Shown here in pieces: positions 36,985-60,100 of a stretch of DNA of 64,000 bases (its first letter is position 1; each line of letters starts with the position of its first letter). This DNA comes from Candidatus Rifleibacterium amylolyticum (GTDB taxonomy: Bacteria; Muiribacteriota; Ozemobacteria; Ozemobacterales; Ozemobacteraceae), in the NCBI GenBank assembly GCA_009917695.1, contig JAACJG010000006.1:62001-126000 (forward strand), written 5' to 3'. The notes beneath the pieces are model-generated. The model did not search any database, had not been told where the DNA came from, and saw only the letters and a program-made list of their open reading frames with translations. The translations under genes were made by a program, and so were the position numbers.

Positions 36985-38574
36985 TTATTCGGCTTTGAGC
37001 TGCTTTTTCAGTGCGGTGTATTCGTCAGAATATTTCTTGAGCTGCTCAAACACCTTCTTGGCGCCGTCCTGGTCGTTGGCTTCAACCATGCGGTTGTACT
37101 GGAGATAGGTGTCGTAGTATTTCTTTTCGACTTCGACAAGGCGCTCGGGCGAAGCGCTTACCGTAACCGGCGCTGAGTCTGCCGAAACGCTTCCCATTAC
37201 TGCCGGACCGGTGCCGCGGCCAGTGCCCGCGACCGAACCGATGGAAACCGGGAAGCCAACATTGCTGGTTGTCCGCTCGGACACCTGGCTGCCTTTGCCA
37301 AAGATATTGGTGATCTTGCCACCCTTGGTGAAACCGGCGATCATCTTAGCTACTTTGCTGCCGAGGAAACCGCCGACGATACCACCGATTATCGGACCAA
37401 TTACCGGTATCGGAGCACCCAGAGCCATACCTATTGCAGAACCGACCGATGAACCAACGAGGTCAACCTTGTCGATTGCCTTAAAAGCTTTGGCGACAGA
37501 GAATTCGCCGTTCTTGATGCCGCTGATCAGGTTGGAACCCATCTGACCGGAAGCAGAGGCAAACATTATCGGAATTACCGAGCCGACGAGCGCGCCGATC
37601 GGGCCGGGAACGAAAGTCTTAACCAGAGTAGCAGTAAACTGACCACCAGCGGCGCCGAGAGCCGATCCAACTACGTTTCCGGCGAATTCAAGAGAAGCTA
37701 CAGACTTAACAGCCTTTGAGAACGAAGGCTTATTGCCGTGTATCATGTCGATAGCCAGATTGGTACCAACGGCTACGGTAGTGGTAATAGCGAGGTTACT
37801 GAATGAAAAACTGTTCTTGAGGGATGTTTTGGCAGCCTGGGTTCCTTCACTGACGCCCTTGGCCATTTTGCCCGAAAAAGTATCGGCATACTGCACGCCT
37901 TCAGAAGCGTCGAGCATGAGCTTGTCGCCACTTCCCTCGGCATCTTTAACTTTACCGTTTTCGAAGGTTTTATCCTTGCTGATCAGACCAACTTTCTGGC
38001 CTACCGCAAAGATCTTGGCGCGAATAGCAGTAATGATGTTCTGCATGGCATTCTTGACTGTGGCCAGAATAGCCTTGATCTTGTCAAGAGCCGGGCCAAA
38101 TTTGCCATTCGACTGAATCTTGCTTGCCTGCACGCCGAGCTGCTCAACGCCATAAGCCAGCTGCTGGTCATAAGAAAGCGTGGTCGGAGAAGCGCCAGCC
38201 GCGATGGCTGCCTTTGCCTGCTGACCGGAAGTATTAAGAGTATTGCCAAGCAGTGCTTTGGCATTGCCAAGAATAGCCTTGAGACGTTCGCCAATGCTCA
38301 TCGCCTGCATATTGCTGGGCGCGATCTTGTCGTAAAGGGGCGCCGAAACTTTTTCGAGACTCACCAGAGTGCTCTGAGCAGTTCTCAGGTTGCTCTGCAG
38401 ATTGTTAAGTTCTGGCAGAACGTTGTTGAGTATCGAAATGTCCACCGGCTGGGTGTTAGAAACCGGAATAGTGACTTCCGGGGCCTGGGCGTAGGCGCCG
38501 AAAGTGGACAGCACGAACATGACCACCGTCAGCAGCGAGATTCTTCGCAACGCTTTTGTGTCAAACAGCTTCAT
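36985..38574 (-). CDS. Secreted protein with glycine-zipper-like hydrophobic segments
   Basis: 529 residues with a signal peptide (ISLLTVVMFVLSTFGAYAQA). Residues 30-200 are helical and amphipathic. The middle (about 270-440) has several Gly/Ala-rich hydrophobic stretches with G..G or A..G spacing: NVVGSALGAAGGQFTATLV, VPGPIGALVGSVIPIMF, and GMALGAPIPVIGPIIGGIVG followed by GFLGSKVAKM. Such glycine zippers occur in membrane-inserting secreted proteins, colicin-like pore formers and outer-membrane lipoproteins. The C-terminus (EVEKKYYDTYLQYNRMVEANDQDGAKKVFEQLKKYSD) is a charged helical hairpin. I recognise no family. The hydrophobic segments could insert in a membrane or pack in oligomers. It has its own terminator and stands alone. 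Confidence 0.75.
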   Translation of the reverse strand: MKLFDTKALRRISLLTVVMFVLSTFGAYAQAPEVTIPVSNTQPVDISILNNVLPELNNLQSNLRTAQSTLVSLEKVSAPLYDKIAPSNMQAMSIGERLKAILGNAKALLGNTLNTSGQQAKAAIAAGASPTTLSYDQQLAYGVEQLGVQASKIQSNGKFGPALDKIKAILATVKNAMQNIITAIRAKIFAVGQKVGLISKDKTFENGKVKDAEGSGDKLMLDASEGVQYADTFSGKMAKGVSEGTQAAKTSLKNSFSFSNLAITTTVAVGTNLAIDMIHGNKPSFSKAVKSVASLEFAGNVVGSALGAAGGQFTATLVKTFVPGPIGALVGSVIPIMFASASGQMGSNLISGIKNGEFSVAKAFKAIDKVDLVGSSVGSAIGMALGAPIPVIGPIIGGIVGGFLGSKVAKMIAGFTKGGKITNIFGKGSQVSERTTSNVGFPVSIGSVAGTGRGTGPAVMGSVSADSAPVTVSASPERLVEVEKKYYDTYLQYNRMVEANDQDGAKKVFEQLKKYSDEYTALKKQLKAE

Positions 38575-38931
38575 ATTTATTCCCTCCGCTCTTCAAACAA
38601 AGAGACTTTCAGATCAAACGGTACAATTACCTTTCAATTATAAGAATGCTTCCGAATTGTGTCAATGCCCCTCCGCCCGCTTCGATATTGGTATCACTAT
38701 CAGAATCGGTATCGTGGTCGTGGTCGGTATCGGTATCGAAACAGGCTTTCAACCAGATAGATTTTATCCGCAGATTACATGATTGCCGCAGATTATCAGG
38801 AGGCTTTCTTTGTGCATTTTTGTTTTTTTTCAGAAAATTATCGTCGTAATCTGACTGATCTGCGCTCGCTATCACAGGCAAAAATAACCAAATGCTTTGC
38901 AGACTGATGCAGGTGTTGTATCATCTTGTCT
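38575..38931. repeat. 357-base spacer with hexamer tract and inverted TCTGCG repeat
   Basis: No gene found. 38681-38740 is a degenerate hexamer tract of GGTATC / GGAATC / TGGTCG units. 38762-38800 holds two units reading CCGCAGATTA, the reverse complement of the TCTGCG repeats seen elsewhere. 38838-38870 holds a weaker forward copy (TAATCTGACTGATCTGCGC). The spacer separates divergent genes, so promoters must also be present, but none was convincing. Confidence 0.65.
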
Positions 38932-39687
38932 ATGAAATACCAACACCTGTTGACTGTGATTCTTGTTTTACTGATCGCGCAATGCCCATTGCACGCAAAA
39001 GACTACCGCCAATGGGAATTCGTCAACCCGGCCGATCTGAAAATTACCATTACCCCGGAAAAACTCGAACTCATATCTGGAACAATCGCAACATTCACCA
39101 TTACAATTCGCAATCGCACCAACCACACCGTCAACATCCATTACCCGACCGGGCAACAATGGGATCTCGCCACCTATCATGGCAGAACACAGATATTCAG
39201 ATGGTCGCAGGGCTACGAATGGGCAGACGCTCCACACACGATTCCCCTTAAGCGCGGCGAAACCCGCTCTGAGCAGCTCAGCTGGCTGACTGTAGATCGC
39301 AACGGCGAACCGCTTCCCCACGGCATTTACCGGGCACAGGGAATGGTCATGATTGCGCCACGCCATCTGGTTTCAAATGACTGCAAGATAAGACTGCTGC
39401 CGCCTGAAATCAAGCCACAACTACTGATTGAGACCCGTCTCAATCAGTTCTTCGACATAGAGTTGCCCAGATATTCTGGAAAACGCGAACTTGACTGGCA
39501 GATCGATTATGTCTACAACGACAATCGTATTGCCGTTCATTCCGTAAACAGAACCGCCGACAAGACCATTTTTACAATGCACCCGATGCGGGTTGGCCAT
39601 GTCGAATTTCACTTATACGCCTATCACGACACTCAGGACGCCACCAGATCGATCGAACGGCGCTCTTTTCGCGTCGAAGTCAGATAA
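38932..39687 (+). CDS. Secreted BsuPI-like domain protein
   Basis: 251 residues from the ATG at 38932, with signal peptide MKYQHLLTVILVLLIAQCPLHA. Residues 35-150 resemble the BsuPI (intracellular proteinase inhibitor) beta-sandwich: ATFTITIRNRTNHTVNIHY, GQQWDLATYHGR, IFRWSQGYEWADA, IPLKRGETRSEQLSW and GIYRAQG occur in family order. Although named for a Bacillus protease inhibitor, this domain is common in secreted proteins of unknown role. The last 90 residues form a second beta-rich domain (FDIELPRYSGKRELDWQ...HVEFHLYAYHD) that I cannot assign; a chagasin-like fold is possible but the usual NPTTGY signature is absent. It sits 15 bases before the PilB-like gene, so it is probably the first gene of that operon. 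Confidence 0.7.
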   Translation: MKYQHLLTVILVLLIAQCPLHAKDYRQWEFVNPADLKITITPEKLELISGTIATFTITIRNRTNHTVNIHYPTGQQWDLATYHGRTQIFRWSQGYEWADAPHTIPLKRGETRSEQLSWLTVDRNGEPLPHGIYRAQGMVMIAPRHLVSNDCKIRLLPPEIKPQLLIETRLNQFFDIELPRYSGKRELDWQIDYVYNDNRIAVHSVNRTADKTIFTMHPMRVGHVEFHLYAYHDTQDATRSIERRSFRVEVR

Positions 39688-39702: not shown

Positions 39703-42700
39703 ATGAATACCACTGCAACTACCAAACAAACTGTCGAAAGTCTGATGGTGCAAAAAGGCCTGCTGAGCGAAGATCAGCTCGAAAAGGCACGAATCATTCA
39801 GGCTCAGACTCTTGAAAGACTCGAAAACATCATTGTCAGACTTGGTTTCCTTTCCGAACGCCAGATTCTTGAGCTCTGGGCTGACTTTCTCGGCATCTCA
39901 GTCGTCGATCTGACCAACATCAAGGTCGATGCCAAGATTCTCCAGCTGATCCCTGAATATCAGGCCAAGCAGTATAAGATGATCCCCTACAAGCGCGAAG
40001 GCAACCGACTGACCGTTGTCATGGCCGACCCTTTCGACATCATGGCTACCGACATGGTCGCTTTTCTTACCCAATGCAAGCTCGAAGTCCTGATTGCGCC
40101 AAAAAATCAGATAGAGCTTGCCATACGACAGCTCTATTCATGGGAAGGCTTTTCAGTCGCCGGCGACGAGTCGCGCAGCGAGCTTCAGGAAGCGGCCGAT
40201 TCGGGCATCGAGGTCGTGCGCAAAACTTCTGAGCAGGGCGCTGTCGTGCAGTTTCTCAATGCCATTTTCAAACAGGCCATTCTCAAGCGCGCATCTGACA
40301 TTCATGTCGAGCCGCGCGAAGACATACTGCTGGTGCGCTTCAGAGTCGATGGCATGCTGCATGATGCGATGACCGGCCCCAAAAGTCTTATCGCACCATT
40401 GATCAGCCGCATAAAAATTCTCTCACACCTCGACATCGCCGAACGCCGCCTTCCCCAGGACGGTCGACTCAAAGTAAAAATGCAGGACAAGGAAATCGAC
40501 TTCCGTGTCAGCACAGTGCCCAGCCTGCTCGGCGAAAAGGCGGTGCTGCGCCTTCTCCAGCGTGAATCAAAGTTCGATCTCGACAATATCGGCTTCTTCC
40601 CGGAAGATCTCGCGCGCCTCAAGTCTGCACTCGACGAGCCGTATGGTCTGATCCTGGTTACCGGCCCGACCGGCGCCGGTAAAACCACAACACTGTTCGG
40701 CATGCTCAAATACTTTTCCAGCACTGAGATAAATATTTTTACAATTGAAAACCCGGTCGAATATCGCATACCAGGCATAACTCAGGTTCAGATAAACGAC
40801 AAAATCGGCCTCGACTTCGCCAGCGGCCTGCGCACCGCCCTGCGTCAGGATCCCGACATCATTCTCGTCGGCGAAATCCGCGATCTTGAAACTGCCGAAA
40901 TTGCCTTCAGAGCCTCTCTGACCGGCCACAAAGTGTTGTCTACCCTGCACACCAATAACGCGCCGGCCAGCATCAACCGACTCATCAACATGGGCGTGCC
41001 TGCCTATCTGGTGACAGCCGCCATGCGGGTTGCCGTCGCCCAGAAGCTTCTGCACCGCAACTGCCCGCACTGCAAGACAGAATATCGACCGTCGCAAAGC
41101 ATCATGCAGCGCCTCAACCTCAACCCGGGCAAGCTCATTGGCACCAAGTTTTACAAAGGAGTCGGTTGTCGGGAATGCAACCAGACCGGAACCCTCGGCC
41201 GCACCGGTGTCTACGAAACCATGGTTATTACGGCCTCAATGAAAGACGTAATCATGGAAGGCGGCACCGAAATGGCAATCAAGCGCGTTGCCCGCCTCGA
41301 AGGCATGCGCACCCTGCGTGAAATGGCAATAGATCTGGCAATTGCCGGAGAATCGACACTCGAAGAAGTCGTCTACGTAACTCCTTCTGATGAAGAAGAA
41401 AAGCGAATTCCGCTCTCAGGCCTTCTTGGAGCGCAGGGCGGCTCTAATATCATCATGCCCGTACAGATGCAGCCGATGTCAGCGGCGATGCAGCCCAACA
41501 CCATGCAGGCTCCGGCCGGCATGCCACAACCCTCTCAACAGAAGCGCCCGGCCATCGACCTTAACGACCCGGTCATCAAAACCATCATCACTGCGCTCGA
41601 AAAAGAGTATCTTTTTCTGAGCGACGATAAACTCGCAGAGAAGTTGCATCTGCCGGTTCTACAGGTGCGCGAACTCATGCAGATGCGCAACCTCGAGCGA
41701 ACGGTCGATGGTTTCAGCCGCTACTTTGGCAAAACACCAGCCGAAATGAGCGAAGCCGATATAGCCGATGTTATCGGCATGATCTTTGAAAAGCATGGCG
41801 AAATTCCCGGTTGCATTTTTGAAGACGAAACCCAGGCACCAATATGGGCCTCTCTCGCCATAAAAGCTGCACTCGAAAAGCTGCGCCACAAGATTCAGAA
41901 ACCCGAAGAACTGCCAGAATACTTCAACGAGCAGTTCATCATCGATGCTGGCCTCGAACAGATTTATCTGTGGGCAAACCGCAGTCGCACTGCCATGATC
42001 GAACTTGCTGCGCCCGGCAAATTCAAAGCCTGGCAGTTTGGCGAAACTGAACAGTGGCTGGAAAATCGCGACATTATGTCCTGTGCCAGAGAAGCCCTCG
42101 AATGGCTGATGACCGAGAAACTTGGCTGCAGTCGTGGCGATCTGCCGGTAATGCTCAGCCGCGCCATATTCAAAGAGAACAACCTCGGCGCTTTGCTCGA
42201 AAAGTTCAATGACTCATGCTTTCAGCTGGTTAACAACCTTTATCCTAACGTATTCAAGCCCTGGCAGTTCGCCGAAGAAGAGCCTCTGATCTGGTTCCAG
42301 GAAGACCGTCTCGAAGTCGCTGCCAGTGCCACCCGCTGGCTCATCGAAGAACGTCTCGGCATGCCGGTTGAAGAAATACCCAAGCGCATCTCAATACGTG
42401 AATTCCATACCAATGGGCTTTCCAAACTGCTCGACCTGTTCAACCAGAATCTCGCGCAGGTGATCGAAAACGCCTACCCGGAACGCTTCAAACCCTGGCA
42501 GTTCAACGAACAGTCCGATCTCTGGAAATCGCCCGAAGCCATGGAAACCGCCCGTCAGGCAACCGAATGGCTTATTAACGATCGCCTGCACATCACACCC
42601 GAAAAAGCAGCGCAGCATCTTACCCGCCGTCATTTCATCAACAACGGCCTCGGCCAGATGCTCGGCAGCCTTTTCAACCATTCGCATTTCATGGCACTCG

Positions 42701-43209
42701 AAAACTGCATCGAAGTGCTCAAAACCAACGAGATCTTCCAGAAGGCGCTGTTCAACTACGCCCACGAAGTGCGCGAAATCAACGCCAGATGGGAAACCAT
42801 CGCCGAAAAAATCGCGATCAACCATTTCGGCAAAGCCCGCTTCAAGGTCACTCTGCCCAATCTCAAGATTGCGCCAATAGTGCCCGAGAACGAGCGCATC
42901 TACATCAATGCCGCCAACCAGATCGAGTATGTGCCGCAGATCGTCATTCCAAAACTCAGCGCCTACTCTGATTTCAGCGACTTCTCGAACTGGGTGCCCT
43001 ACTGCGACCGCCTGACCTACTGGATTCTCGGCGATGACCGCGGCGCCGGCTACGTCGAGCCAACCCACCCCAAGGTCAAACTCGTCTTTGTCGATGCACT
43101 GATCGCCGGCCTGCGCTCAAAAGGCCTGCTCGACGTCGTCGAAAAGGTGCAGCAACTGGTCGCCGCCCACACCCGCATGCTCGACCATAAGGCTCCCGCC
43201 GGAATCTGA
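39703..43209 (+). CDS. PilB/GspE-type ATPase with 600-residue repeat extension
   Basis: 1,168 residues; GGAGAA precedes the ATG. Residues 1-150 are the GspE N-terminal domain. The core has Walker A GPTGAGKTTTLFG near residue 324, the Asp box (ENPVEYRIPGITQVQIN), Walker B DIILVGEIRDLETAE, and the His box (STLHTNNAPASINRLINMG). A four-cysteine zinc motif follows (CPHC near 452, CREC near 488). The motor powers assembly of type IV pili or type II secretion pseudopili at the inner membrane. The family normally ends near residue 570. Here a Met/Pro/Gln-rich linker leads into about 550 more residues with at least three repeats of 77-78 residues, each containing FK.WQF, a Trp-containing stretch, and A..A.EWLI.ERL (near 773, 851 and 928). 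The extension's function is unknown. Confidence 0.9.
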   Translation: MNTTATTKQTVESLMVQKGLLSEDQLEKARIIQAQTLERLENIIVRLGFLSERQILELWADFLGISVVDLTNIKVDAKILQLIPEYQAKQYKMIPYKREGNRLTVVMADPFDIMATDMVAFLTQCKLEVLIAPKNQIELAIRQLYSWEGFSVAGDESRSELQEAADSGIEVVRKTSEQGAVVQFLNAIFKQAILKRASDIHVEPREDILLVRFRVDGMLHDAMTGPKSLIAPLISRIKILSHLDIAERRLPQDGRLKVKMQDKEIDFRVSTVPSLLGEKAVLRLLQRESKFDLDNIGFFPEDLARLKSALDEPYGLILVTGPTGAGKTTTLFGMLKYFSSTEINIFTIENPVEYRIPGITQVQINDKIGLDFASGLRTALRQDPDIILVGEIRDLETAEIAFRASLTGHKVLSTLHTNNAPASINRLINMGVPAYLVTAAMRVAVAQKLLHRNCPHCKTEYRPSQSIMQRLNLNPGKLIGTKFYKGVGCRECNQTGTLGRTGVYETMVITASMKDVIMEGGTEMAIKRVARLEGMRTLREMAIDLAIAGESTLEEVVYVTPSDEEEKRIPLSGLLGAQGGSNIIMPVQMQPMSAAMQPNTMQAPAGMPQPSQQKRPAIDLNDPVIKTIITALEKEYLFLSDDKLAEKLHLPVLQVRELMQMRNLERTVDGFSRYFGKTPAEMSEADIADVIGMIFEKHGEIPGCIFEDETQAPIWASLAIKAALEKLRHKIQKPEELPEYFNEQFIIDAGLEQIYLWANRSRTAMIELAAPGKFKAWQFGETEQWLENRDIMSCAREALEWLMTEKLGCSRGDLPVMLSRAIFKENNLGALLEKFNDSCFQLVNNLYPNVFKPWQFAEEEPLIWFQEDRLEVAASATRWLIEERLGMPVEEIPKRISIREFHTNGLSKLLDLFNQNLAQVIENAYPERFKPWQFNEQSDLWKSPEAMETARQATEWLINDRLHITPEKAAQHLTRRHFINNGLGQMLGSLFNHSHFMALENCIEVLKTNEIFQKALFNYAHEVREINARWETIAEKIAINHFGKARFKVTLPNLKIAPIVPENERIYINAANQIEYVPQIVIPKLSAYSDFSDFSNWVPYCDRLTYWILGDDRGAGYVEPTHPKVKLVFVDALIAGLRSKGLLDVVEKVQQLVAAHTRMLDHKAPAGI
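42022..42720 (+). repeat. Tandem 77-78-residue FKPWQF repeats in the ATPase extension
   Basis: FK[AP]WQF is encoded at 42022, 42256 and 42487, giving periods of 234 and 231 bases. Each unit continues with a Trp-containing segment, then A..A.[ER]WL[IM].[ED][RK]L and a segment ending NGL..[LM]L or NNLGALL, then a helix before YP..FK. A more divergent unit probably precedes them. The repeats resemble, from memory, those of DUF4046-type proteins; this needs a profile search. Confidence 0.75.
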
Positions 43210-43210
43210 C

Positions 43211-43963
43211 ATGCAGATCCAGTCTTTCTCGCAGACCGGCAGCATCAGAGACGACAACCAGGATCACCTGCTGATCGACTCTGATCTGCGCCTTGCCATC
43301 ATCGCCGACGGCCATGGCATAGCGGGAAAGGCTCTGGCAGAGTATACTGCCAACGCCATCCGCCAGCGCCTGCGCGAGATCGCGCCAGTAACCGGCAGCG
43401 ATGAGAACCTGCACCGCCTGCAAGAAGCTTACGATCTGGCAATAGCTGCAACGCCAGCCGAACTCGCCGGCAGCAGCCGCTGCGACATCGCCGCCACCTG
43501 GATCAACCGTGGTATTGCCGCCGTTTTTACTACCGGCGCCTGCCGCCTGCTTTCGGCCCTTCCAGAACAAAACTGGCTCGAACAGCGCGAGTTCGCTATA
43601 CCTGTCACCGCCGACACTTCGCTTCTTCTTGTATCAGAAGGTGCAGCGGCAGCATTAAGCTCGCAACAGCTGCAGCCCGCGCTCAACGGCATGCTCGCTG
43701 CAGCCGACGACGATGGTTTTGCTACTTTTGAACAACAGACAACCTCCGTTTACGATGGTGATGATTGCAGCGCTATTCTGCTCAGACTCGACCAGACCGA
43801 TCTGACCGCCGGTATCCCGCACGAAATAGAACTTTTCGAGCACTACAACCGCGCCTGGTCTTTCAAACTCTGGCAACCCCTCGCACTTGCAGCCGCCACC
43901 GGCCTCGCCACCATTGCCGCCGCCCGCAAACTCAAACCCCTGATCGCCCGCATCAAATCATGA
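43211..43963 (+). CDS. PP2C-like protein phosphatase with C-terminal membrane helix
   Basis: 250 residues; the ATG begins one base after the ATPase stop codon, so the two are translationally coupled. PPM/PP2C features are GSIRDDNQDHLLI (motif I), LAIIADGHGIAGKALAEY (metal Asp and Gly region), LLLVSEGAAAAL (in place of the usual LCSDGL), and DDCSAILLRL near the end (metal Asp). The sequence is short in the centre and the S.G replacement suggests altered activity, but three metal-binding positions are present. A hydrophobic segment at the C-terminus (PLALAAATGLATIAAARK) may hold it at the membrane. Coupling to the PilB-like ATPase suggests reversible phosphorylation control of pili or secretion; no partner kinase is nearby. 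Confidence 0.75.
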   Translation: MQIQSFSQTGSIRDDNQDHLLIDSDLRLAIIADGHGIAGKALAEYTANAIRQRLREIAPVTGSDENLHRLQEAYDLAIAATPAELAGSSRCDIAATWINRGIAAVFTTGACRLLSALPEQNWLEQREFAIPVTADTSLLLVSEGAAAALSSQQLQPALNGMLAAADDDGFATFEQQTTSVYDGDDCSAILLRLDQTDLTAGIPHEIELFEHYNRAWSFKLWQPLALAAATGLATIAAARKLKPLIARIKS

Positions 43964-48186: not shown

Positions 48187-51100
48187 ATGAAGCGATCGAG
48201 TCTGCTGTTCTTCGCTTTAATACTGATATTCAACCTCTATCCGCAATGTCCGGCACTTGCGGTATCGAACCTGTCGAATGGCGTCATTCAACTTCTTAAC
48301 GACGTCGATGGCAATGGATACATTAACCGTGGTGACACCATTCGCGTTTCCTGCACAGCCGTATTCGTTGCACCGGCAACAGCATGGGTAATAGCGCCTA
48401 CCGTTGATCTCAGCCAGATTGGAATAGCCAACACAGCTATGGCAGACCAGGGCGGCGGCAATTTTAGAGTAGATATCACTCTGACAAACTGGAATCAGGC
48501 TGTTAACTATATTCCCAGAAATATAACTATTTACTGTCGAGCAGATGATGAAATCTTTAACAATACGGTTACTGCGGCTCCAACATTTGATCTGGCTCAA
48601 GTTGAAGGCACAGGAGCGAGCGCGATAAATGACGTAACACTAACCAACAGAGCTCGACTTGGAGAAAGGCTGCGAATACAGATTACTGATAACAGATACC
48701 AGACCGACCCCCTCGGAGGAACCATCTGTACGGTAAACTTAACACCTATAGGCGGCAATGCTGCGACACCGATGCCATATGTTGGAGGAAATGTCTTCAG
48801 GGTGTTGTCAGACCCGATCCCGGCCGGGATCAATTATACAGGTCCACTGACAATAACCCTAAACGATCCGATGCTCGGGCATGCGGCAGTAGGCTATTTG
48901 ACAGCAAACGTGATAGTAGATTCGGGAGTTCCTACGGTTGATTTTGGTAATACATCTGTCGTAATACAATCAGGCAACCCAACAGCTCTTCCGGGTGATG
49001 TTCTAAGGATAACTGCAGCAGTAACAGCTTATGACAACGAAACAGTAACGGTTTTTTGCGCAGATCTTAACGGCCTCGCCACCTCGGTCCCAGCGCTCAA
49101 CCCTGCATTCCCAATGCCGCTGATCAGTTCGAGTGGATTGGGGAATCCAGCGGTCTGGCAGATTGATGTTACTTTGAGAGACGCTGATCTGAAGAGTCCG
49201 AGCCTGCTGTTCACATTTACGTTTACCGACGATGACGGCAATGTTATAACAGTACCAAGATATATATCGATAGATCTCGATGCTCCTAATGTATTGAACC
49301 CGACAGCCAGGGTCTGGTTACCAGAAGGTACCCTTTCTCCTACAAATACAGCAACCACTACCTGCCGACTCGAATTTATCGCATCGGTATCCATTGACAT
49401 AAATCCAGACACTCTTACCGCCAGTATCGACCTCTCAGAAATTGGCGCGTCCGCGCAGTATCCTATGACCCGCGTCGGTATGTCCAACAATTACCGGGCA
49501 TATTACACAGTTCCGCAGGGTAATCTTGAAGACATCCTTGGCTACGAATTCACCATATCTGTTCGAGATGCCGCAGGCAATCTTGTGGCACAGTCTACCG
49601 CACCTCAGATAAGAATAGATAACAAGCCGCCTGTATTAAGCAACATGCAGCTGACAAGCAGCAATCCTGTTAACCCCAATATTATCAGAGCTGGCGACCA
49701 GTTTACAGTTCAGTGCACCGTAACAGATATTGAAAGCGGTTCGGCGTCAGTCGATCTGTCGCGCCTTGGCATAGCCCCGCCATACCAGCTATTACCTGTT
49801 GGCAGCAATGTATACAGAAGAACCTGGACCCTGCCACCTGCCAGCACCTCACTGGCGCTGGACCCAATTGTAGATGAATATGTAGCACTGCGTGTATACG
49901 CGAACGACACGGTTGACAGCGGATCATATGTCGGACACATTGTAGATGGCTATACGGGCCAACTAATGATCGACAACGATGCACCGCAGATTCTCACAGC
50001 CACCTACACGTCCGTCCACAATCAATATCCCACCGATGCACTCGGGTATGTGAGAATCGGTGATTCAATAAGCTTTTACGCTCAGGTCGCCAGCGACCCA
50101 ATAACAGTCACCATCAACATGCTGAATCTTGGTCAGGGAAACGCAGAGAATATGTGGCAGTCCACAAATCCTGCATTTCCCTTAGACGATGGATGGTATG
50201 AATACAACCTCAATGGAGATGTTCCTGAAGGTCTTCTCAATCGCCAGACAGTTCAGTTCAGGGTTACTGCCACAGATGACGCCGGGAACGCCGACACATA
50301 TGATGTTTCTGTGCCGATAGACAACCGGCCAGTTAAAGTCAGCAATTTTGACGTTGATGTAACCTACCAGCTGGACAGGAACGATACCGACATCAGCATT
50401 ATCAATCTCAACAAACATGTAAAATTGACTGTAACTCTCACTCAACCTGTTCCCGCGGAAGCTGATCCGGTAAGCACGCCACATGCCAGTGCAACTATTG
50501 ATCTGAGTAACTTCGGCCTCGGAACTGCTGAAGCAATGACCTATGATGCCGGCCTAGGCGCATACACATATGAATTTGACAACACCTTGCCACAAAATAT
50601 CGATCTTGCAAGTTACCGTTTCCAGACGACAATCAAAGATATCTCCGGAAACCGTACGCTCAGCCAATCAGCGATGCGGCGAGTCGATAACTGGCCGCCC
50701 ACATTCAATGCTTCCCCTACCGCGAATGTAGTTGGTGGTGGATCCAGCGCCAAGATAGGTGACAGCATACTTTTCCGGGCTGATATCAAAAACAATGAAA
50801 ATACCGCGCCGGTGATCGATCTTGACAGCCTCGGATTGAGCAGTGCTCAGGCAATGACATTGATTTCCAGTATCGGTGGCGTCAACCGTTATGAATACAC
50901 CGCAACAATAAGCGCCGGAACCAGCAACGGAACCGATACCGCCTGGATTATCACCGCCAGGGATAATGACTTGAACTATGCAACCGACACAACAAACCTG
51001 TTAACGGTAGATAGTTCGGCACCACAGGTGGCAACAGCTCTAACAGTTTCTGGAAACAGTCAGGCCGGAATAATAAGAGCCGGCGAAAATCTTACCTTTA

Positions 51101-54100
51101 CTTTGCGCCTTGCGACTGACACAACTATTGCCAGTGACAGTGTAACTGTTGACCTGAGAATGATCGGTATCGACAACGCTGTATACCAGATAACCAATAC
51201 TGACACCTACGCTACTGGTTCGCTCTGGGTTGCCAACGTTACCAGCCTGGCAACCACGACTGAATACACTAACGTCAGATTTACCGCTACAATTACAGAT
51301 GCCTCCGGAAATGTCACAACATCGAATTCGCAGCTGTTCAGCGAAATTGATTGCAGACCGGTTACCATCAGCAATTTCGGATTAACTCTCTGGCAGGACA
51401 ATGGCGTAGTGAACCCTGGATTCGCCGGCCCGGACGATGTTGTGATGATCTGGGCAAGCGCTACCTATTATCAGGATGCAGTGCTTACCGGAAATCTGGC
51501 GACCGGTGCAGTGGGCCTGGAAGTCGATTATGCCTCAGCCACCCTCACCTATAACAGCACAAGAAATCGACACGAAGGCCTGATTACAATTGCTACGAAT
51601 ACCGTAACCAGCTGGCCAGTAGTTGCCGGCAATTTAATCTATAGAGTCAGAGCTGTTGATAACGTCAGCAACATAACTTCGACGGCTTATACCACCTGCC
51701 CTGATTTTGTCGTAAGAAACATAATGCCGACTGCTCTCACATCAGGCATTAACCTCTCTCCCAACTATTATCTGGCGACCACCAGCACAGATGTACTCAT
51801 CTACAATCTGGCCAGCAGCACGACTGGCGATGGCCTTATTGCATCGATTACCTTTGCCGACGATCTCGTCATTCACAAGGCCTGGCTTGACTTCAGAGAA
51901 TTCGGAACTGGCACAGTTGATTTGAAAACAGATAACAGCAGCAGTGCGGTTACCATTTCGGGTTATACTGTTAATCGCCTGCCACCAATCGAAGATGGTG
52001 TTTCAAGAAGAGTATGGTTGTATGCGATGGATCAAGCCGGCAATGCAACCTACACCTCCGAACGCGTGTTCATCGACAACATAGCACCAACACTCGTCAG
52101 CGCAGAGTTCGATGGCGAAATTCTTTCGGTGGCACTTTCCGAAAATTTTGACAATAACTCCTTTGTTGTCGAGAACTGGCAGATTATCGGCAGCTCTACT
52201 CTTGGCGCGCCGGCAAGCCTTACCTTCAATGCTACTGCTCCGAACGAAATTCTCGACTGGTCAAGCTTTCAGCTTGAACTTGATATCAGCCATCTCAGAA
52301 CGATGGCCGGCTGGGCATCCACACCGATTTACCTCAAGGTCACCAATACCGCAACTTCGGCTGTGACTGACATGTGGGGCAATGAACTGCGACCTGTAGA
52401 ATACTTCCCGATTACGATCACCGATTCGTCATGGCGTGAACCTGCGCGCATAACCCATTTTACGGTAGAACAGAACTGGCCGAACTCAGTTAATATTGAT
52501 CTGCTGTTCAGCAAGAACATGGATCAGGACAGCCTGGCGGCAACTGCTGCAGTCCTGCTGCTGGCAACTGACACCAGTGGAACTTTTGCAACCAATGTAG
52601 ATTACAACCTGGGTTATGTGTTTCAGGCCTCGAGTACCGCCCAGGCTTCTGATACATTCGCATGGCAGAGTCCAACCCATCTTCGTATCACTTTGTGCGA
52701 AACAGGGCGCCGCTGGGTAGCCAAAAAGCTTACCAACAATACCAGTCAGAAACTCTATTTTGCCTGCAGAAACACACTCAGGCCCTTTGTCATTGACTTT
52801 CTTGGTAAACCGGTCACTCACATCGATCCGACCTCTCCACTTCCAGGCGTTGACAACCGCCCCGTGTCGAACTTTGCGTTCCGTGGGCCACCGGATGATC
52901 CTAAGTTAAGCATAGGAGAACGCAGTCTGGTTCTTTCGGCCAGCGACCTGCTGCTGCTGTCGAACAGCCCTTACAATAACAACGAGACAGTGCCCTATCT
53001 TATCGAGCCGACTCCTACATTCAACAATCGTGTTACCAGCTTTCATGGCAAGATAATTCTTCACGAAAGCAACAGCGGCAGCACGCAGGTTCTGGAATTT
53101 GAGCCACTTGCTACTACAACTAATCAACTTTTTGCCAGCACAACCGTAACCCTTAAACTTACTGACGATGATCTGGTAAACATCCTTGCACTCTATCAGG
53201 CAAACCCAAGCCCGATCTGGGAAATGACGATTCAGGCTGGCGCCTTCACCAACCTGTGGGGCAACTCAAATCTTGCCTATCTGCCGTCAAGTTTCCCAGG
53301 CGCGATGCAGGTGGCTACCGGAACTCCCGCGGCCAGTGCCACTCTGGCGGCCGTATCCATGAGCGACAAGCCGCCGGTCAGCGCCAAACTCGCGGGTGAA
53401 CTGATATTTGAAGTTGAAGTGTTCCCGCCTGACATAGATGGCATACCGTTGCCGTTGCAATGGCAGACCACACCCAAAGCTGGCATTTTCTTACAGGATG
53501 CCGGCAACACCTGGGTTGCCTCAGGAACCTTCGTCAACTACACAGAACGAACTGTCGATGGCAGACTGCGTGGCGTTTTCCGCTACCAGAACACCGCAGC
53601 GCTGCCAACTAACCTGCAGAGTGTTCCTGCTGTCGTCAACATTTATGGCGTAACCGACATTTTTGGCAACAGCAAAGACCTGACCGCATCCTATGCTTAC
53701 GACCTTAACACTAAAAACGACGGAGCAGTCGAAGGGTTTACCGACGCGGCTTCTGCTGGAATCATTCTTGACACGCAGAAGCCAGTGGTAATGGTCAATC
53801 AGATCATACCGAACGATTACATTGGCAAAATTCCAGCCGGTTCAATATTCCGCGTAAACTTCGACGAAGATATGAATCAGGCGATCATTCCAACTCTCAC
53901 GCTTGCCACCTCAACCCAGACCATGACGTTTACCTTCTCTTCCTGGTCTGCTTCAGCTACTGCCGAGTTCACTAATGATTCAGCCTTTACCTCTACCCTG
54001 CCCAATGGCACCTGGTATTATCAGGTTACCGGCGGCACCGATATTGCAGGCAATATCATGACAACTACCGGCGCAACAGCTTTTCCTGTGCAGGTCCGCA

Positions 54101-57100
54101 CCTATGCGCCAGAAGTCAGCGCCGGCAATGTTGTTCTGCGCACAGTTCAGACCACAATCTCTACGGCAGAGCTTATAAATGAACCCTGGAGCAAATACCT
54201 GGCCGGCGGCAGCGCTGTATTCAGCGTAACCTATGATGCCGTGCCAATACAGAATCCGCCACACTTTCTCCAGATCTATGACCCGATCAGCAATGTCGTT
54301 CAGGGAGAAGTCGCGCTAAGCGCCATGAGCGGGAACCTAGCCACTGCAACAATAGCGAATATCGCCGCCACGACGGTTGGCCCGGTAGATTTTGCTGTGA
54401 GAATCAGAGACTCTCTCAACAACCGCACCGACAAAGTCCTTGACATGGTTTATGATGGCCTGGCACCAGACATGACTGTCTTTGACATCAGCGGCCTGGG
54501 GGTAGGTTCAACAACTGCCGAATACACATACTACAATCCACTCTCTGGCGATCTGCTTCTCAATTTTGAAGCAGTAACAACCGATACGCTCCGTCTCGCA
54601 GTTTTCAATGGCGCTGCAACTTCAACCCAGCTGTTGAATGACAGCGGCACCCCGGGCAATTACTTTCTCGCCACCGGCAGCACCTATGCCGACGGCCCAT
54701 ACACCTTTACCGTTGTCGATCTCGCCGGCAATATCGGCACAGGTCTGGCAACCCGCAAAGTTTACGCCGACGCATCTGCCCCAGTGCTTCTGTCTATTGT
54801 TCCAGAATATTCAGTTGGACAGCCCGGTCCTTATTACATAGGCAAATGTCTCGCCTCTGAAACGAGACTGGTTGTGACCTTCTCTGAACCAATGGACGCA
54901 GATCCGGCCCAGGAACCAACACTGGTGCTCACAAGAAATGCTTCAACCATCAACTGGCGCTTTGTCGGCTGGGTAAATCCTGCCGTAGCATCAACTGCCA
55001 TTTACGAAAATATCGGCGACATAACTTCTGCTCTTGAAACAGGCCAGTATCAATTCACCATGACCGGCGGAAGAGATCTGGCTTTCAACACAAGAACCCC
55101 TGCCAGCGACCAGACTAAGACCATCGAAGTCTATACCGCCGGCCCTTATGTAAATATTACTACCTATACCAATCAGAGCCATATCTATGGCACCACTCCG
55201 CAAACCAATCTCGGCTATAATCCGTTTTATACAGCTCCAGGCTCGGCCACAATCCGCATCGACTTTATCGGCACGACTTTCGACACTTACGACCTGATAG
55301 TCTCTTCAGGATCAACAGAAGTCGGCAGTTATACCGGCCTGCCTCTGCCCACTCCATCCATAATACCTTTCGAACCGACAAACGCATCCTGGTCATGGGC
55401 GGGCATTCACCCGCAGGATGCCAATTACACTCTGCGCGTTCGTGATTCCGGCGGCGATTATTCTCCCTCTTTCACATTCAGATACGATACTGCCACCCCG
55501 ACTATCAACACCGCCATTGCCATGACGACAGGCTCCGGTATTGCTACAGATACCGAATATGCTCCCGTCACTGTTCTCTACTATTCACCTGCTGCAGGCG
55601 ATGCAAACTTCAACATAACTACCATCAATCCTGATGTGATGCGGCTGCTCGTCTTCAACGGTATTGCAACACATGTAGCCGATATGACACCGGGACTTAC
55701 GAATCACAATGCCCTCTGGTCGTCGCTCAGCAACGCTGCTGCAATCGTTGATGGTCCATATATGGTTACGGGCGTGGATACGGCAGGTAATATCGCGGAT
55801 GGCACAGCCTCAACCTCTATAGTGATGATAGATACTGTGCCTCCACAACTTGCTTCGGCTGTTGTCATGATCGGTGGTCTGCCTTCGACGAGCACCGGCG
55901 TCGTTGCCACCAACACAGGTGTGTTCAGACTCACATTTGATTCAGGTATGAACACTTCCGCTGCGTCACCGACTCTGACTCTTGCCTCTGACAGCGGCAC
56001 GATCACCATGCGTGCTACCAGCTGGATCAGCTCTACTACCTGCGAATTCACCAACACTGTCGCAATTGACAAGTCATTCGCCCCAGGAACTTACAGTTAT
56101 CAGGTAAGCGGCGCGCTCGACTACGCCGGCAACACCAACGCTGTCCCTGCAATGGGTTCGTTCACAGTTGTATTGTTCACCGAAGAACCCGATCTTACCG
56201 CTTTCCAGGTTGTCAGCAATCAGACAGCTCTTTACGGGACCCAGGCATTCATAAATCGACCGCTGTCATTCGAAGCTTATGCTGCCGGTCCGGATATTGC
56301 CACATTAACTCTCAGTTATCGAACCGCCGCAGGTCATCCGTATCAGGAGCCACATCTGATACGCATTTACAACAGTGCCAACGTCCTCGCATCGGAAGCT
56401 GTGGTTCCTGGAGCCGTCGGTGGCATCAGCAGCTTTACGCTGAACTCCAGCGCTCTCGGGAATCCTCCCGCGGGTGCCACTGAATCATACAGCTTCAGGC
56501 TTATCGACAACATTGGCAACATCAGTGCGACCTACACCTTGCCAATAGTCTATGACAGCATTCGCCCCGAAGTGGCTACTGCCGCAATAAGCACTGTCTC
56601 GAATGCCATAAGCAGCCCGCTTTATTACAACGAACAACTGCACGGCGCTCTCAATGTCAGGTTCGAAACCAGCGCCTCAGCAGCAACTGATTCTCTCGTT
56701 CTGGCAATAGCGACTACTACTGCACTGCCTTATACATGGAACATGTATACCAATCTTACCACCGGTATCAGCACTTACTCGATTTCGGTCGCCAGTGCTG
56801 CCAGCCTCGCCGAAGGTCATTATGTAATCACTGCTGCCGATATGGCCGGCAACTTTGCCACAGGCACAGCTTCGATTACCATGTTTGTCGTCGACCGCAC
56901 AGCACCGGTAGTTCTGACCGCAACAACGTCGACAACATTGCCAGTCGTAAGTGCAACTGCCGGCGGTGCCACCTTCACTGTGCAGTTCAACGAGCACATG
57001 AATGAACTGTCTTCTGCAACACCGGCACTTGTGATAGCCACCACAACCGCCCAGATCGCCTGCACCTTCAAAGGCTGGATCGCATCAGATACTGCACAGT

Positions 57101-60100
57101 TCGTAAACACTGCCACAATCAGCAACGCCCTGCCACAGGGTGATTACGACTGTCGCGTCATTGCCTGGGATCTTACCGGCAACAAACTCGACACCAACAA
57201 CGCAGGCACCATGGTTGTTCAGTCTCGCGGCCCGATCATTGCATCGTGGAGCACTGTCTCCTACCAGCAGACGACAGCAAGCGAAACCCTTGCCAGTGGC
57301 CTGGAAATGCTGACCAATCAGCCATTCAGCGTCGATGTCTGGCCAAATGCTGCAACCATAACCATTGAACTGGCAGCGGCACCGGATGCAGAACCAATAC
57401 ATCTGCATTTCATGCAGGATAACACAACAGTAGCATCTTATCCTCTGGTTCTTAACGGAATGATAGCGAGCTTCACCTGGTCGGATGCCGCCAGTCCGAC
57501 TCCAACCCTGGCAACGACATATACCATGCGGATTGCAGATGATAACGGCGACTTCTCGCTCGAAAGCCTGCCATGGCGCATGGATAATGCCTCTCCGTCA
57601 GTACAGCTTCTCACCATTACCGGCGGCGAACTGGCCACCAGTTCGGTTTACTTCAATCCTGCCCGCCACCGCTATATCACCACCAGGTTCAACACAGCTG
57701 AAAGCGAGGCACCCAGACTTCGTATTCGCGGAAGTAATTCGACAGATACCTTTGAGCTGACCAGCGCAGGTACAAATCAGTGGTCTACCAACTTTGAAGG
57801 CCTTTACAGCCGCCCGAACAATCTCGGAAACTATGCTACGTTACCGGATGCCACCTACGCACTCGACATGGTTGACCGCGCCGGAAATATCGCATTCCTG
57901 GCTTCTGACGGTCTGCCTATCGACTTCGAAGTGGTAATCGACACCCTGGCGCCGATAGTAGCAACATACAGCACAAAAGTTGCCGGCAACAACGTAACCT
58001 CTTTTGCACCGGCCGCCGGCAATCTCGATATTACGGCAGTATCGGCTGAAACTCTTGTTGCGACAGGAGTTTACTGGATAGAAGTTCTCGATAACACTGG
58101 TGTCAGAGTCAATCGCCTGCCACTCACAGACAGTGTCGGCAGTTTCACTGCTACATGGGATGGCACCAACAGTGACGGTGATCTCGTGCTTGACGGTTAT
58201 TACACTTTAAGAGCCACTGACTACGCCGGAAACCCGACAATCAACTCGATTACTGTATTCGCTCGAACCACACCGTTCAGAGTCTCGACTATCGAGCAGG
58301 TTTCTGCTACTTCGGCTCGAATGTGGTTCAATCATGACATAGACGACACGACGTTTGGCGGCACACCGATCACTTCGGTGCCGGCTCTCGCCATCAGCGG
58401 CCTTGTCCGCGACCAGGAAAGGGCGATCACCTTTAACGTCAACCCGGCATTTACTCATGATACTTCCTACGTATTCACAGTTGCCACCAACACAATCAAG
58501 AGCGTATTCGGCTCTGGAATCTCTGAGACAGCAAGCACTGCCGTCCTGGTAGCAGATGGTCGAGGACCTGTTATCACTGGCGTCAGCTTCCATGGTCTTA
58601 CCGGCCAGCAGGAATTCAGAGTAGAATTTGACGAGAACTATACCGCAGCTTCAGCCGGCGATAAAGCGAACTACACACTTACCAGTGCCAGTGGTGCTAT
58701 GAGTATAGTACTGGCCACCACTCAGTCTGATCTGCGCAGTGTCGTTCTCACAGCCGACCCGGCACTGATCGAAAATGCCGACTACACCATAACTGCAAAC
58801 AACATAGTCGACAATTACGGCAACGCCACCAGTTCTTCGCTCGCCTTCAAAGGCCGCGATCTGACACCACCCGTTCTTACCGTATCGGCGTTCTCCAACC
58901 CGGCTAACGAAAACGATATAATTGTTGTCGTAACCAGTAACGAAACGCTGAAGAGCGCACCGAACCTCAGCGTGGCTCAAAGCAATGCGCCAGTTATCAC
59001 CACGGTCATGCAACAGGGTGCCGAACCAAAATCCTATATGATCGGCGTCAGTCTCAGTCCTTCTTACGCCGGCAATGGAACTCTGAGTGCTGAGGCACAG
59101 GATGTCGCCGGCAACACCGGTTATGGAACAAACACCTTCACGGTAGCCTACGTCTCATCGACGAGAGCATCTATTGTAATGTCGGCTGACAGCATGCTGG
59201 CACTCAATTTCAGCGAGCAAAGTCTGAAATCGGATGCGACCGTCAAGATTCTGCAACACAAACTCGAAAAGTCAGAATCTACCGGCGGCGCAATCAGAAC
59301 TTCTCTGCAACGGCAACTAAGAGCAGCCATGGGTTCTCTGCGCGGCAGCGCAGCAACAGACACCGTTCTGCCCAACCACGTTGAGCTGATTCCTGTATCT
59401 GATGCTTACGAAATCGGTATTCTCAAGAGCAAGGTCAACAACGGATTTAACGTAAATCTCTTGAGCAATGTAGCTACTTCGACCACCGGTATAGCACTGT
59501 TTAACCAGGTCGGCGACAGCTGGAACTTCGTAACCGCCAGCCGTGACAAGGAAGGGGCATTCACTGCCCGAACCGGCTCATCGCAGATCTTCGCGATCAT
59601 GCGCGATATCGCGGCGCCGCGCCTGAACCTTGCTGCTGACATGGAATTGAGCGAACCGTTCCGCACTGCCAGACCTGAATTCAGAGGTCGTGTCGAAGAA
59701 GCCGGTTCGGGTATCGACCCCAGAACAGTCATCGCCCGCATCGACGGCGGGCCGGGACAGCCGGTTCAGGTCGACAGCAACGGCAACTTCGTGTTCACAC
59801 CAATCGCCGACCTGGTGGCCGGCGACCACGATCTCGTGATCAAGGCTGCTGACCGCACTGGTAATACCGGTCTGATGGCTGCTACCAGGTTCCAGATCGT
59901 AATGCCGCTGAGCATCAGCCAGATCGTTCAATACCCCAACCCGGCTAACCGCCGCATGTTCATCAGAATAAGCGCGAACCGGAACGATCTGACCAGCGAC
60001 CTGGTAACGGTGACCATCTACGATGTTGCCGGTCATAAAGTCGACAACCTTGATTACATCAAGGCCGTCAAAGAAAATGTGGTTGGCCAGCGTTACCTTT

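Follow-up and report, generated by a model that had tools for sequence, protein, structure and literature searches.

A PilB-family motor with a long C-terminal tail

The 64,000-nucleotide stretch of DNA analysed here (the window; contig JAACJG010000006.1 of Candidatus Rifleibacterium amylolyticum) encodes a PilB/GspE-type motor ATPase whose complete catalytic core is followed by a C-terminal tail of about 610 residues, built in part from repeats of the DUF4046 type. We tentatively suggest that the protein is a specialised pilus or secretion motor in which the tail acts as a protein-docking arm. As far as our tools reach, this tailed motor is undescribed. Its 1168-codon open reading frame has zero internal stops and starts 15 bp past the preceding gene's stop codon. 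The protein and its parts are as follows, in window positions.

39703..43209, + strand: PilB/GspE-type motor ATPase with a C-terminal tail of about 610 residues (1168 aa; GGAG, resembling a ribosome-binding site, upstream)
39889..40140, + strand: MshEN domain, residues 63-146 (PF05157, E 4e-18)
40228..41370, + strand: T2SSE ATPase core, residues 176-556 (PF00437, E 1.5e-129, 432 bits)
41371..41574, + strand: variable Pro/Met/Gln-rich linker, residues 557-624 (lowest conservation)
41575..41748, + strand: helix-turn-helix (HTH)-like helical module, residues 625-682 (AlphaFold2 helices 2-11, 17-24 and 28-37; predicted local distance difference test, pLDDT, about 86-90)
41857..42039, + strand: DUF4046-type repeat unit 1, divergent, residues 719-779 (repeat profile; 6.4 bits with an independent hidden Markov model, HMM)
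42055..42270, + strand: DUF4046-type repeat unit 2, residues 785-856 (repeat profile and independent HMM)
42289..42504, + strand: DUF4046-type repeat unit 3, residues 863-934 (repeat profile and independent HMM)
42520..42711, + strand: DUF4046-type repeat unit 4, residues 940-1003, lacking the terminal FKPWQF (repeat profile and independent HMM)
42730..43206, + strand: C-terminal alpha/beta domain, clade-specific, residues 1010-1168 (no match in the libraries used)

The T2SSE domain, the four intact motor boxes (Walker A at residue 321, Asp box at 345, Walker B at 383 and His box at 408) and the intact tetracysteine zinc motif of extension motors (CPHC at 454, CREC at 489) make the protein a member of the PilB/GspE-type T2SSE ATPases. 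The boxes and the tetracysteine are kept in 24 of 24 aligned family rows, some of which are one species entered twice from two collections, and the complete core claimed in a first, sequence-only reading of this DNA stands. The doubled length claimed there holds as well: elsewhere in the genome, the open frames of PilB-like ATPases span 562-665 aa, with a single exception of 1024 aa. This oversized paralogue (L085:3003-6077, or G000:C21:27002-30076) has two MshEN matches, a T2SSE domain and a C-terminal HATPase_c (histidine-kinase-type) domain, and its tail is unrelated to that of the window motor. A weak T2SSE match at C6:93714 (window position about 31714) was rejected as a motor, as it sits in a Clp-type AAA protein. 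The window protein scores below the cut-offs of the type IVa PilB equivalog TIGR02538 (582.2 bits over residues 13-560, cut-off 675.65) and of TIGR02533 (cut-off 630). Intact, present in single copy and forming a clade of its own with its orthologues, it is most likely a specialised, fast-diverged extension or secretion ATPase of the PilB family.

MshE binds cyclic di-GMP (c-di-GMP) through two RLGxx...LxxxLxxQ motifs (PMC5013675), and this pair is not found in the window motor, where the corresponding motifs (about residues 11-63, N-terminal of the MshEN match) are degenerate and read TVE...Q and RLE...F. In all inspected orthologues with the N-terminus present, sequences of TVE/SVE type and RLE type stand in place of RLG, and the second Gln has gone; a paralogue from the same genome (L002) retains both RLG motifs. 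The NCBIfam c-di-GMP motif model NF053729 gives 35.9 bits against a cut-off of 38. We infer from the replaced motif residues that nucleotide control of the window motor has been weakened or lost.

Anatomy of the tail and selection upon it

The tail runs from the linker through the short HTH-like module and four repeats of about 78 residues to the C-terminal alpha/beta domain. An AlphaFold2 model of the 544-residue tail, built from 10 sequences (pLDDT 84.6), is all-helical from residue 625 to about 1040 and then enters the alpha/beta domain, the first part of which includes a weak patch; three helices between residues 625 and 665 stand in HTH-like order. A Foldseek comparison of this model with the PDB and with viral models returned nothing with E below 0.1, and Pfam, NCBIfam, PADLOC and PHROG gave the tail no significant label. 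For the C-terminal domain there was no match in the PDB or Pfam, and no relative was found outside the family. A resemblance to an MmcB-like PD-(D/E)XK nuclease, suggested by a motif, was not supported: PF06319 was blank in all orthologue tails, and there is no ExK and no support from PDB sequences; the AlphaFold2 model of the domain alone (pLDDT 46.6) is too poor to show its fold. A phage origin of the tail was likewise set aside, as no relative occurs in the phage collection or viral contigs.

The tail is under strong purifying selection, and in the closest pairs its C-terminal domain is constrained like the ATPase core. In the two closest orthologue pairs, the ratio of nonsynonymous to synonymous divergence (dN/dS) is 0.019-0.024 for the C-terminal domain versus 0.022-0.033 for the core; the full ranges are 0.019-0.047 for the C-terminal domain, 0.022-0.041 for the core and 0.05-0.14 for the repeats, all from a simple Nei-Gojobori count in which dS exceeds 1 in several comparisons, so that near pairs alone are informative. 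The linker has the highest dN/dS of all parts of the protein in the closest orthologue pair. We note that, against the two closest orthologues, the C-terminal domain shows fewer synonymous differences (0.37 and 0.45) than the core (0.52 and 0.59), perhaps through an extra constraint at the nucleotide level or through noise. A missed stop near residue 570 had been named as something that would undo the fusion, and none is there; we reject this or any other frame artefact since about 20 orthologues from other genomes keep the frame open and the protein is under selection.

The repeats are of the DUF4046 type

FKAWQF or FKPWQF occurs at residues 774, 851 and 929, which gives the spacing of 77 and 78 residues reported in the sequence-only reading, but the number of repeats was one too low: the profile finds four units rather than three. 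The same reading had guessed at DUF4046, and here the family was right although its Pfam model PF13255 (gathering score 22.8 bits) does not match the fused proteins. The link runs through their homologues. With BLASTP the tail finds an Alicyclobacillus protein (7e-35) and a Priestia protein (6e-24), both above the PF13255 cut-off (41.8 bits for the former), and a relative from another bacterial family (L082) also exceeds it at 39.3 bits. A tblastn search of 72,556 plasmids with the repeat region returned the Alicyclobacillus protein at E 1e-28 (30.7% identity over 89% of the query), together with proteins of Priestia, Aneurinibacillus and Pontibacillus, several of them annotated as DUF4046. 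An HMM made from the units of non-Riflebacteria proteins only gives the window protein 189 bits, three of its units scoring strongly and one weakly, and gives shuffled versions of the tail (2000 in all) 7.6 bits at most; when the family tail is compared, profile against profile, with the stand-alone proteins of family f77, the probability is 99.9%. The homology of the fused repeats to stand-alone DUF4046-type proteins is, on these comparisons, secure. A second candidate, the homing-endonuclease associated repeat (PF18780), was rejected (hhalign probability 0.2%, E 0.28). Our literature search found no paper mentioning DUF4046.

The stand-alone relatives keep varied company. In family f77, a stand-alone repeat protein, mostly of about 290 aa and three units homologous to window units 2-4, occurs in 19 of 20 genomes and in all 13 of good quality. 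Immediately downstream of the repeat gene, in ten of ten loci (nine from f77 and L082; L081, L082 and L128-L135), come hldE-like kinase and adenylyltransferase genes, so named from our reading of the sequences rather than from library matches; this synteny is strong. On plasmids, DUF4046-type genes are often beside ger spore-germination operons (Priestia and Alicyclobacillus: L053, L054, L055, L058, L059 and L060), and one lies beside replication and relaxase genes and one among genes without a clear theme. Charge also varies: the fused units have a mean isoelectric point (pI) of 6.5 (range 5.7-7.9) and a mean net charge of -0.4, the stand-alone units beside hldE a mean net charge of +1.2; whole f77-type proteins have a pI of 9.2-9.9, and the plasmid set is mixed. 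An orphan Pfam family thus turns out to be a repeat module that is mobile and clearly placed in three settings (ger operons, hldE-like genes and the motor fusion), and a function learned in any one of them would inform the others, Bacillus and Priestia offering a genetically tractable stand-alone version.

Distribution and origin of the fusion

The source genome belongs to Candidatus Riflebacteria. A search of 40 genomes of the phylum found the tail in 21, all from the family of the window. Within that family it is present in 21 of 24 genomes, one gene in each (split over two contigs in one genome), and the three without a match are 69-84% complete; none of 16 genomes from other families of the phylum has it. 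Among 190 genomes drawn from the phylum and more widely from the domain, three more contain the tail repeats, in frames of 291, 318 and 624 aa that cover about positions 161-382 of the 544 in the profile and have neither the HTH-like nor the C-terminal part. Within this sampling, the fusion of motor and tail is characteristic of one Riflebacteria family, and a standard PilB extension of the whole phylum with a known function, which the sequence-only reading had named as a refutation, is not what we find. Public records labelled Methylomirabilis and Erysipelotrichia (L034, L039 and L042) carry the locus and belong to the same family by genome set, an apparent mislabelling.

The tailed proteins group as one clade in a maximum-likelihood tree of ATPase cores. 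Their nearest sampled relative is a PilB of 715 aa (G031) from another Riflebacteria family, f6; the join has a support of 100/100 at 48.7% core identity, with long branches that call for caution. The tail of G031 consists of a linker and, at the very end, an HTH-like module (the family HTH profile gives it 16.9 bits, and none of 5000 shuffles more than 7.9). This suggests a stepwise growth in which a PilB-family motor would have gained the HTH-like module first and later, within a single Riflebacteria family, a repeat protein of the DUF4046 type and a further C-terminal domain; we infer this order because the sister PilB carries the HTH-like module only. At the sister locus (L201:1363-6112) a GAF-SpoIIE phosphatase gene comes next, followed by a gene for a putative STAS-type protein, and a GGDEF-like gene lies nearby on the other strand (the STAS and GGDEF assignments being our reading of the sequences). 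The arrangement resembles a partner-switching locus that includes a motor.

Genomic neighbourhood

Two genes flank the motor in the window.

38926..39687, + strand: exported BsuPI-domain protein, 253 aa, with a hydrophobic, signal-like N-terminus (PF12690, E 3e-10)
43211..43963, + strand: PP2C-like phosphatase, 250 aa, with a hydrophobic C-terminal segment (PF13672, E 0.005, below cut-off)

The BsuPI gene and the tail occur in precisely the same 21 genomes, and none other of the 40 has this gene. It is immediately upstream of the motor in every locus with a sequenced 5' flank, and in 20 of the 21 genomes it directly adjoins the N-terminal part of the motor on the same contig (the two are on separate contigs in one). 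The genome has 19 matches to T2SSF/PilC genes, none of them near the locus; such a match does closely accompany several other PilB paralogues. Because the BsuPI gene shares the 21 genomes and no T2SSF gene is nearby, the motor appears to be an orphan with one faithful companion, the BsuPI-domain protein, whose export is predicted.

The downstream gene adjoins the motor in only part of the family. Its product scores 16.8 bits against a Pfam cut-off of 24, although RxxNQD, DGHG and the final DD can be read and the metal-binding motifs are largely recognisable. On the opposite strand, at 36985-38574, lies a gene for a 529-aa protein with glycine-zipper stretches (PF13488, weak) that is kept beside the locus in several genera. 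Further along, window positions 48187-60240 encode a giant repeat-rich putative secreted protein of 4017 aa, and a neighbouring stretch (L084:26-7015) encodes another of at least 2329 aa; the C-terminal segments of both resemble a sorting domain.

Function of the tail

The motor would act as a hexamer like other PilB/GspE ATPases and would then carry six flexible cytosolic arms, each made of four helical repeats and a constrained end domain. We suggest that a regulator or client protein in the cytosol may dock to these arms, and that this docking would set the time or place at which the motor drives a type IV pilus or type II-like machine; for this the motor would borrow a PilC-type platform encoded elsewhere. 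The tethering of a partner, raised in the sequence-only reading, is plausible. The exported BsuPI-domain protein would be part of the cognate function, whether as cargo, filament-associated protein or envelope partner. As the c-di-GMP pocket has apparently decayed, the C-terminal arm may have taken over control from the nucleotide sensor at the N-terminus. The slightly acidic charge of the fused repeats and their conserved positions, mostly hydrophobic or structural, are what one would expect in a protein-docking solenoid, and the sister PilB of f6, beside its phosphatase and putative STAS-type protein, is in keeping with motors tied to signalling. Several points weigh against a docking arm, and we hold the suggestion with corresponding reserve. 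The comparison of structures gave the tail no significant match, so that the case for docking is made on composition and architecture alone. The surroundings of the locus showed no pilin gene. Finally, the presence of an HTH-like module, together with the basic charge of stand-alone homologues, gives nucleic-acid binding some likelihood.

We consider it unlikely that the HTH-like module and the repeats bind nucleic acid and couple the motor to DNA or RNA, be it for regulation of its own operon or for localisation. The AlphaFold2 model does contain HTH-like helices, the stand-alone homologues beside hldE are basic, and DUF4046 genes adjoin varied operons (ger, the hldE pair, plasmid replication and relaxase genes) in the way that transcription regulators often do. 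However, the fused repeats (pI 5.4) and the HTH-like module (pI 4.7) are acidic, the putative recognition helix is not basic, having an invariant Q and E and no invariant Arg or Lys, no significant match to a DNA-binding family was obtained in Pfam, the PDB or PADLOC, and the profile comparison with PF18780 was negative. The acidic charge of the fused repeats disfavours the tethering of a nucleic acid that had been proposed from the letters of the sequence. The wider proposition, that repeats of the DUF4046 type form an undescribed solenoid for binding nucleic acid, widespread in bacteria, and are fused here with an HTH to a motor so as to couple it to DNA or RNA, strikes us as distinctly improbable.

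It is also doubtful that the tail works within its own protein, as a regulatory collar on the ATPase ring that sets its activity and has no separate partner. Motor and tail are a single polypeptide, the C-terminal domain is constrained like the core, and the apparent loss of c-di-GMP input would call for some other control. Against this, the variable linker favours a tethered rather than a packed arm, and the repeat module occurs alone in other phyla, with no PilB domain in the same protein, and so has a function that does not depend on the motor.

Docking of the PP2C-like phosphatase, also put forward in the sequence-only reading, we judge very unlikely. Its gene is 1 bp from the motor frame, relatives occur in the genus and in several other genera, and the sister PilB is followed by a phosphatase of another type; but there is no recognisable PP2C neighbour in three genera with the whole tail (g9, g11 and g6; L036, L037 and L040), a fourth locus (L038) being uninformative because its contig ends beside the motor, and the phosphatase falls to about 25-30% identity while the tail stays at or above 50%. 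The genomic evidence points instead to the upstream exported BsuPI-domain protein as the partner. That the tail is a lineage-specific decoration whose main effect is to stabilise or localise a PilB that is otherwise normal, as the unrelated HATPase_c tail of a PilB paralogue in the same genome might suggest, is highly improbable, since core-level constraint and strict co-occurrence with BsuPI exceed what decoration needs. What the tail binds is testable, given how widely it is spread and how strictly it is paired with an exported protein.

Comparison with known systems

With PilB, GspE and MshE (PF00437 and PF05157; TIGR02538) the window motor shares a complete MshEN domain, the T2SSE domain, the catalytic boxes and the zinc motif; it differs from them in its decayed c-di-GMP motif, its 610 extra residues and the lack of an adjoining PilC gene. 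The sister PilB G031 has a related core and an HTH-like tail module in common with it, but has neither the repeats nor the C-terminal domain, and no BsuPI gene was found in its genome. The repeat unit is that of the stand-alone DUF4046 proteins of Bacillales (PF13255), whereas the window copy is fused to a motor and to a C-terminal domain, is acidic and has diverged too far for the Pfam model. The 290-aa protein of f77, by contrast, is free-standing and basic and adjoins heptose-synthesis-like genes. Control of PilB is known to run through its N-terminal domain and through separate effectors such as PilZ and FimX (PMC11656802); here, a PilB-family motor carries a large and strictly conserved C-terminal arm of its own.

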